A stretch of 64,000 bases of DNA from Lactobacillus sp. PV012 (lineage in GTDB: Bacteria > Bacillota > Bacilli > Lactobacillales > Lactobacillaceae). Below the pieces are notes generated by a model. It made no database searches. It was not told the origin of the DNA and saw only the letters and a program-made list of their open reading frames with translations. The translations under genes and the position numbers were made by a program. The DNA is taken from assembly GCF_014522325.1 (NCBI RefSeq), contig NZ_CP041983.1, positions 186,001-250,000 on the forward strand. The letters are read 5' to 3'. Position 1 is the stretch's first letter; each line of letters begins with the position of its first letter. Below, in pieces: positions 29,603-30,284 of the stretch.

Positions 29603-29738
29603 GAAGTGTCTGGGAAAAAAATAATCTTTTAGTCTAAATTGTATAAATAGATAAAACAAAAGTGCTGATATATCAACGTTAAAAAAACGAAGATTATCAG
29701 CACTTTCTTTAATTTAAGAGTTTTTTCCCAGACTCTTC
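29603..29738. mobile_element. 136-bp MITE-like element
   Basis: Terminal inverted repeats of 18 bp with one mismatch (29603-29620 and 29721-29738; core GTCTGGGAAAAAA). Inside is a second 12-bp inverted repeat (29659-29670 with 29695-29706) that forms a hairpin and could end the helveticin-like transcript. No coding capacity. The GTCTGGGA-type ends resemble those of IS1182-like elements in Firmicutes, from memory only. No clear target duplication was found at the edges. Confidence 0.55.
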
Positions 29739-29799: not shown

Positions 29800-29988
29800 T
29801 CATTTAACTTCTTCTTTTAAAAGCTCTTTTCTTTGCTTTATAAAGTCTTCTAAGTCTTCTAAATCTTTTGGTTGAGCATAATTAATAATAAAATTTTTGG
29901 CCATTGATTTATAACTATACTTTTTAGCCTTTTCTTTATTTTTGGCGTTCCATTTGTTGCGTGCCCGTTTCTGTGCCTCAGTTGCCAT
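29800..29988 (-). CDS. Small basic protein next to candidate toxin
   Basis: A 62-residue, strongly charged protein (MATEAQKRARNKWNAKNKEK... ending KQRKELLKEEVK), predicted all-helical, with a Lys/Arg-rich N-terminus that could bind nucleic acid. The ATG at 29988 has GAGGAT at the right distance; in-frame codons upstream belong to another reading frame's gene and give no plausible start. It lies 58 nt downstream of the candidate toxin peptide gene on the same strand, so both may share an mRNA. Proteins of this look occur widely in lactobacilli; I know no assigned function. Confidence 0.65.
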   Translation of the reverse strand: MATEAQKRARNKWNAKNKEKAKKYSYKSMAKNFIINYAQPKDLEDLEDFIKQRKELLKEEVK

Positions 29989-30010: not shown

Positions 30011-30147
30011 TAAGAAAGGGCAAGCCGTTTTGATCCGCCCCGATCCTCATCGCTTACGCTTGAGAATTGTAGCAATTAAAGCTATAATCATAAGTAAAGT
30101 TTGAGGGTCAAGAACAATTTTAATCGTCATAGTCTTGCCCTTTCTTA
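30011..30147 (-). repeat. 14-bp inverted repeat pairing the toxin SD with the mRNA 3' side
   Basis: 30134-30147 (CTTGCCCTTTCTTA) and 30011-30024 (TAAGAAAGGGCAAG) are exact reverse complements. On the minus-strand RNA the first arm contains the AAAGGG ribosome site of the 27-codon peptide and the second lies after its stop codon, so the arms would close a helix enclosing the whole reading frame and hide the SD. Confidence 0.75.
30047..30130 (-). CDS. 27-codon hydrophobic peptide, candidate type I toxin
   Basis: Reads MTIKIVLDPQTLLMI, then a hydrophobic stretch IIALIATIL and a basic tail KRKR, a single transmembrane-helix peptide like Fst/Ldr/Hol-Tox type I toxins, though I do not recognise the exact family. 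AAAGGG stands 8 nt before the ATG. A minus-strand promoter (TTGAGG at 30263-30258, 18 nt, TATAAT at 30239-30234) gives a leader near 97 nt beginning with a hairpin (30226-30220 with 30198-30192). An opposing promoter and terminator for an antisense RNA overlap the start. Too short for routine gene callers. Confidence 0.6.
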   Translation of the reverse strand: MTIKIVLDPQTLLMIIALIATILKRKR

Positions 30148-30186
30148 ATTAGCCGAGGGTTCCACAAAGCCCTCGGCTTTGTTGTT
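30095..30186 (+). ncRNA. Candidate antisense antitoxin RNA
   Basis: On the plus strand, inside the peptide gene, TTGAGA (30060-30065), a 17-nt spacer and TATAAT (30083-30088) form a near-consensus promoter. Transcription from about 30095 would cross the first 12 codons, ribosome site and leader of the peptide mRNA and end at a 9-10 bp hairpin (30151-30160 with 30169-30178) followed by a T-rich stretch. The product would be about 90 nt and fully complementary to the mRNA's translation start. Prediction from sequence only. Confidence 0.5.
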
Positions 30187-30284
30187 CCTCGGTAGGGTTT
30201 CAGTTTTACCATTGCTTCTACCCTACATATATTATTATATACCTTTTAACGTATAAACCTCAACACTTAATTAATATTTTTTGG

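Follow-up and report, generated by a model that had tools for sequence, protein, structure and literature searches.

The window analysed here is a stretch of 64,000 nucleotides (nt) from the 1.54-Mb genome of Lactobacillus sp. PV012 (G000:C1:186001-250000), and it contains a small locus that a preliminary description had read as a candidate type I toxin-antitoxin system. On the minus strand, a frame of 27 codons (30047-30130) encodes the hydrophobic peptide MTIKIVLDPQTLLMIIALIATILKRKR, which ends in a basic KRKR tail. The frame is preceded by a Shine-Dalgarno (SD) region, TAAGAAAGGGCAAG (30134-30147, minus), by a hairpin at the 5′-end of the predicted toxin mRNA (30192-30226, minus), and by the predicted promoter TTGAGG-N18-TATAAT (30234-30263, minus), which scores 10/12 against the consensus. 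On the opposite strand, a second predicted promoter, TTGAGA-N17-TATAAT (30060-30088, plus; 11/12), lies within the coding part and is directed towards a terminator hairpin (30151-30178, plus) with 11 pairs and the tail TTGTTGTTCC. The preliminary description had named the frame, both promoters and both hairpins, and all of them were found again. The antisense RNA predicted from this promoter and terminator would be about 90 nt long (30095-30186, plus) and is complementary to toxin codons 1-12, the start codon, the SD region and the leader hairpin. Two further elements had escaped that description. One is an anti-SD sequence inside the frame, CTTGACCCTC at codons 7-10 (30103-30112, minus), which is complementary to the SD region; the other is a 14-nt anti-SD sequence past the stop codon (30011-30024, minus), a perfect complement of 30134-30147. 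Two general features of type I systems, a small, mostly hydrophobic frame with a ribosome binding site and an overlapping antisense gene (here a predicted promoter and terminator), are present in the sequence. We consider it likely that the locus represents a new, lineage-restricted family of type I toxin-antitoxin systems that works like AapA/IsoA.

In AT-rich DNA, an isolated promoter-like site or hairpin arises easily. Promoter-like sites numbered 8 in 1 kb compared with 4.2 in shuffled sequences, and terminators 2 compared with 0.8, so the single parts taken one by one are weak evidence. The whole window was scanned on both strands for the combination, with ATG frames 20-40 codons long required to contain an antisense promoter scoring 10/12 or higher and to have an opposite-strand terminator at most 70 nt before the ATG. 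With these criteria, which were set after the locus was known, the only match in the window was this locus, and none appeared in 200 dinucleotide shuffles. When the window frame was recoded synonymously 2000 times, only one version had an antisense promoter as good as the real one. The predicted mRNA folds at -70.2 kcal/mol (z score -4.24, 0/200 shuffles as good) into a structure that contains the 5′ hairpin, and the predicted antisense RNA has a z score of -4.39 (0/200 shuffles).

Relatives of the window copy (WIN) were sought with the peptide, the DNA and RNA models. A second, shortened copy in the same genome (L002/L009) shares 76% DNA identity with WIN over the hairpin, the SD region and the first codons (E 1.1e-17). 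The window peptide alone retrieved one other genome of the genus, G045 (E 0.09), and a two-row profile of WIN and G045 (A1) led to G044 (8.2e-9) and to G039, L. rodentium (1.6e-4). At E-values of 5.1e-10 or lower, a five-row profile picked out 4 of the 75 Lactobacillus genomes (next hit at 0.004), and an RNA model found the same five loci in the same number of genomes at 1.1e-12 or better; both were built from the five loci that they recover, and their E-values are not independent. The total is five related loci, WIN included, in 4 of the 75 Lactobacillus genomes. The RNA model R1 reached a fifth genome of the genus at E ≤0.05 (G070, E 0.045), which does not look related. A degenerate DNA pattern run over the genome contigs returned 38 stretches, two of them real (L068 of L. 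rodentium and L087, the contig of G045, a Lactobacillus metagenome-assembled genome); the other 36 were judged unrelated by their frames and upstream bases.

Beyond the genus, profile A1 matched 79 of 397 family genomes at E ≤0.5, the top three being the source genome, G044 and G039. Eleven A1 loci were opened; L018 and L019 were real and the other nine were not. Weaker profile rows that were also opened (L050, L053, L103, L105, L107 and L108) lacked the anatomy of the toxin locus by eye. Profile A2, applied to 397 family and 395 order genomes, reached 5.1e-10 or better only in the source genome, G039 and G044. R1 gave a single match, the source genome, among 191 family genomes, a draw in which the presence of other carriers was not shown. 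Plasmids (searched with the window peptide), phages (with the G045 peptide) and viral contigs (with two DNA patterns) gave no match, and such searches are barely sensitive enough for a query of 27 residues. The candidate toxin family appears lineage-restricted, with no relatives seen outside Lactobacillus in the family and order samples. The surroundings of the loci differ: G044 lies beside a 351-codon frame, a similar frame is found at G045, and the L. rodentium locus precedes a 380-codon frame that we take to encode a tyrosine recombinase.

The anatomy of the five loci was compared part by part. All five have a hairpin immediately before the SD region, with unlike stem sequences, that reads as a terminator on the antisense strand, and all five have a TATAAT on that strand. 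The antisense promoter scores 11/12 in G044 and G045 as it does in WIN, with 54 and 162 of 2000 synonymous recodings, respectively, being as good. On the toxin strand, G045 has a TATAAT before the leader hairpin, though the promoter scan accepts none; G044 has no TATAAT there and carries a 10/12 promoter-like site about 80 nt further upstream. The fold of the G044 mRNA includes a hairpin at the place that matches the 5′ hairpin of the window. The codons for (D/N)PQ occur in four loci, and L009 has LPQ. Intact frames can be read in WIN and L. rodentium only, the G045 frame holding unread bases; in G044 the frame is altered at its end, and in L009 it is shortened and runs on without a proper end, the leader hairpin being lost. 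The preliminary description had held that homologs keeping the hairpins without the peptide frame would speak against it, and on this point the outcome was mixed: a hydrophobic frame of 25-27 codons is kept in two of the four relatives (G045 and L. rodentium), and G044 and L009 do not end cleanly. Damaged copies of this kind fit a harmful gene.

The SD-closing elements recur as well. Codons 7-10 read TTTAACCCTC in G044, G045 and L. rodentium, in place of the CTTGACCCTC of WIN, and here too they can pair with the SD region. For the hairpin between the SD region and the in-frame anti-SD, the folding program gives a predicted energy of -11.6 kcal/mol in WIN, -14.4 in G044, -14.4 in G045 and -11.9 in L. 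rodentium, values reached by 6, 12, 17 and 5 of 1000 synonymous recodings, respectively; G044 and G045, being close copies of each other, do not count as independent cases, and L009 was outside this comparison. The 3′ anti-SD of 14 nt in WIN was equalled in none of 2000 shuffles, and G044 has one of 11 nt (18/2000). The full mRNA folds gave -70.8 kcal/mol (z score -8.60) for G044 and -48.9 kcal/mol (z score -5.22) for L. rodentium. Transcripts of increasing length were folded to equilibrium, each length by itself rather than with a kinetic model, to follow how much of the SD region is unpaired on average. This fraction was 0.50-0.92 in transcripts that end shortly after the ATG and 0.09-0.33 in those that reach codon 12. 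For transcripts up to the stop codon it amounted to 0.28 in WIN, 0.51 in G044 and 0.08 in L. rodentium; inclusion of the 3′ anti-SD brought it to 0.001 in both WIN and G044, and the full stretch of L. rodentium still gave 0.07. The 3′ anti-SD of G044 and of G045 doubles as the 3′ arm of the mRNA terminator hairpin, so both pairings compete.

Selection on the peptide itself was assessed in three frame pairs over the first 20-21 codons by placing the same substitutions at random. A peptide as similar and without stops was obtained in 358 of 20000 placements for WIN and G045, 479 for WIN and L. rodentium, and 4 for G045 and L. rodentium; selection on the peptide frame is modestly supported by these comparisons. 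Part of the conservation of the frame is at the RNA level. The window peptide had no match in Pfam, NCBIfam, PHROGs or PDB, in searches where short peptides are hard to match and where the AapA content of the libraries was not checked. Pfam DUF1155 aligned weakly with the L. rodentium peptide (E 0.006), and was rejected after 8 of 231 genomes matched it at E ≤0.1, none over the cut-off, and none of three opened matches was alike. A tblastn match of the L. rodentium peptide to the L013/L133 stretch (E 0.006, filters off) was considered a hydrophobic chance match. No Rfam family reached its gathering score in the window, and Termite-leu over the antisense RNA (E 0.043, 21.2 vs 51 bits) was taken as chance.

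The preliminary description had cited three known groups as models, Fst/Ldr, TxpA/BsrG and AapA, and only the last provides the layout found here. In TxpA/BsrG of Bacillus, the toxin mRNA and the antisense RNA overlap at their 3′-ends. That system resembles the window locus in combining a small hydrophobic toxin with a cis antisense RNA in a Gram-positive host; in the window, in contrast, the overlap covers the SD region and the beginning of the frame. Members of Fst/Ldr, including Lpt of L. rhamnosus plasmids, share with the window a short hydrophobic peptide with a charged end, a 5′ hairpin and a closed SD, and Lpt also shares a Lactobacillus host (PMC7472228, PMC5608710). However, the majority of Fst/Ldr toxins carry a P/D/S/TXXXG motif, which the window peptide, having no G, does not contain (PMC7472228). 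Furthermore, Fst/Ldr have convergent RNAs with a shared bidirectional terminator, whereas the window antisense RNA would start inside the frame and its terminator lies before the SD region; direct repeats were not searched for.

The arrangement described for aapA3/IsoA3 of Helicobacter is closer. The IsoA3 promoter was inactivated by two synonymous changes and must therefore lie inside the toxin frame, an anti-SD at codon 9 within the frame forms an SD-closing hairpin, a third anti-SD closes the full mRNA from the 3′-end by long-distance pairing, and the 5′-end stem-loop is stable (PMC6733600). The first anti-SD (aSD1) of aapA lies upstream (PMC6733600, PMC8309996), and transient SD hairpins silence the toxin mRNA during its own transcription (PMC6733600). 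The Lactobacillus loci are alike in having a predicted antisense promoter within the toxin frame (WIN, G044 and G045, that of L. rodentium being not beyond chance), an in-frame anti-SD hairpin that would close the SD (four loci), and a 5′-3′ long-distance pairing that would close it (WIN and G044, not L. rodentium). AapA1 is similar to the window peptide in size, at about 30 residues, and likewise has a basic end, of two residues; a 5′ stem-loop is also common to both systems (PMC6733600, PMC8309996). The differences are that the Lactobacillus host is Gram-positive, the peptide has no family match, and the locus is known here from its sequence alone. By analogy, the layout is the aapA3/IsoA3 design in a Gram-positive bacterium, and membership in AapA/IsoA by descent is, in our view, unlikely. 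Among the papers listed in searches of the open-access literature (PMC; titles and abstract openings), none dealt with the window peptide or described an AapA-like system from Firmicutes.

The proposed mode of action follows this design. An mRNA starting near 30229 on the minus strand would encode the small membrane peptide. While the mRNA is nascent, codons 7-10 would fold back on the SD region and close it, and once the 3′ part has been made, the 3′ anti-SD would pair with the SD region and lock the full mRNA. The antisense RNA of about 90 nt, transcribed from the in-frame promoter, would cross the start codon, the SD region and the leader and stop at the hairpin; it would pair with any mRNA that has opened, blocking translation and presumably exposing the mRNA to RNase III cleavage. 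Loss of the antisense RNA, or trimming of the mRNA at its 3′-end, would allow the peptide to be made, and it could then harm the cell membrane.

Several observations weigh against this proposal. The antisense promoter of L. rodentium has a poor -35 and reaches 9/12 in all, a score that 1218 of 2000 recodings equal and that is not beyond chance, and the promoter scan accepts no antisense promoter at L. rodentium or L009. Nor does the scan recognise a promoter on the toxin strand ahead of the leader at G045, L. rodentium or L009, and our confidence is slightly lower because of these three loci. The 3′ anti-SD of L. rodentium (6 nt; 927/2000 shuffles) is not beyond chance either. In WIN the SD region is mostly closed even without the 3′ anti-SD (0.24-0.28 unpaired), so trimming alone may not open it. 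Two of the five copies, G044 and L009, are damaged, and in two of the three frame pairs the substitutions have no preference for the third codon position (8,7,7 and 9,8,8). Covariation, which the preliminary description had suggested as a check, gave a divided answer: the RNAalifold consensus comprises the terminator hairpin and the SD hairpin, and 6 of its 19 pairs changed on both sides; on the other hand, its energy is small (-3.22), the covariation term is unfavourable (+3.24), and one or more of the sequences break 15 of the 19 pairs, owing in part to differences in pairing register. Overall, the type I toxin-antitoxin reading is supported, having held up in those tests that were feasible.

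The surroundings of the window copy hint at a prophage. On the minus strand, 3′ of the toxin, lies a 62-codon gene (29800-29988) that matches phrog_2277, a phage family of uncharacterised function (E 4e-16). Within the spacer of the toxin promoter there is an operator-like palindrome, TATACGTTAAAAGGTATA (30238-30255), of the form TATACGTT-NN-AACGTATA. The toxin promoter region resembles stretches in G028 and G030 over 35-39 nt at 87-92% identity, and the palindrome joined to TATAAT, with up to 2 mismatches, occurs in 3 of 75 genomes, with a single site in the source genome (2 mismatches) and two sites in each of G028 and G030. A reversed control of this element had no match in the 75 genomes. 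The palindrome alone was found 7 times in its own genome and 5 times in the control, which is not above it. In G028 and G030 the palindrome and TATAAT precede small genes, one of which matches phrog_2277 (E 2.4e-21), and the frames beside these sites are presumably a prophage lysin and holin. Viral contig L133 has a similar promoter and palindrome before prophage-type cargo genes. The palindrome-TATAAT element may belong to a regulator, the window toxin looks like part of a scrap of a prophage cargo operon, and it is perhaps under a phage regulator. The 62- and 59-codon phage-type proteins found no phrog_2277 gene by tblastn near the other toxin loci (4.0 kb at L009; 3.1 kb at L017 and L018; 8.0 kb at L068 and L087), where the best match was at L009, with 20% identity and E 0.21. 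The phage-type gene is therefore a passenger that the toxin core does not need. Elsewhere in the source genome, L010 holds a phrog_2277-type remnant (1586-1762; 59 aligned residues at 56% identity, interrupted by a stop), preceded by a promoter-like stretch with AATACGTTAGGAGGTATA.

Further out, the window toxin is flanked by a helveticin-J-like gene and a phenolic acid decarboxylase gene. Some additional features were seen along the way. A 30-codon frame (MVKLKPYRGTT..., 30120-30212, minus), read by eye and possibly due to chance, has its first codon in the 5′-hairpin loop and shares 11 nt with the beginning of the toxin frame, which we take to resemble the arrangement of mok over hok. At 29605-29734 of the window, AGTGTCTGGGAAAAA and its inverse TTTTTTCCCAGACT lie about 100 nt apart and enclose a hairpin that stands between the two converging transcripts, and a similar motif, AGTGTCTGAGAAAAA, lies 3′ of the second toxin copy, at about 2050 of L009. 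Adjoining that shortened copy are two direct repeats of 300 nt (L009 991-1290 and 1455-1754), 97% alike, each with a 37-codon hydrophobic TTG frame on the minus strand (MSIADAIVISIVLNS...) that has no Pfam match; they could be another small-toxin repeat.

Other explanations of the window locus were weighed against the toxin-antitoxin proposal. The position of the 62-codon gene, on the same strand and 58 nt past the toxin stop, with the 3′ anti-SD between both frames, would suit a translated leader, in which translation of the peptide switches the mRNA structure and opens the downstream start and the plus-strand promoter is incidental. However, tblastn finds no such gene in the 3.1-8.0 kb of DNA around the other toxin loci, and the phrog_2277 genes in G028 and L133 follow a frame of 138-145 codons and not a peptide of this kind. 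A leader would also leave the antisense promoter and terminator without a role. We regard it as highly improbable.

The peptide could instead be a harmless regulatory small protein of the membrane that happens to be under antisense control, and its size, hydrophobic stretch and basic tail alone are no proof of toxicity. However, silencing in layers, by an in-frame hairpin, a 3′ anti-SD and an antisense RNA, and the existence of damaged copies in G044 and L009 better fit something dangerous, which makes a non-toxic product unlikely. Alternatively, the window copy could be a dead remnant, an old toxin-antitoxin locus that has lost expression and is kept by chance in a prophage scar; the same genome has the shortened copy in L009 and the phage-type gene remnant in L010, and G044 is damaged too. 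The window copy, nevertheless, has all its parts, and those tested exceed their controls, so that we hold this to be very unlikely.

If the locus is a type I toxin-antitoxin system, a broader, tentative proposal is that a Gram-positive lineage reached the complete AapA/IsoA design independently, that the few conserved codons of the toxin, (D/N)PQ, owe their conservation mainly to a role in the RNA, where they would close the ribosome binding site while transcription is under way, and that the window copy has come under a promoter/operator shared with prophage genes, so that a phage regulator may decide its timing; we see this as possible rather than probable. Loci such as this one escape annotation: no family model fits the window peptide, and relatives are found in three other genomes only. 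The same layout in Lactobacillus, with no recognisable relation to AapA/IsoA, would suggest a general solution that has been reached more than once, and the Lactobacillus family, coming from a harmless genus, would offer a small system in which to study the co-transcriptional silencing of toxins.
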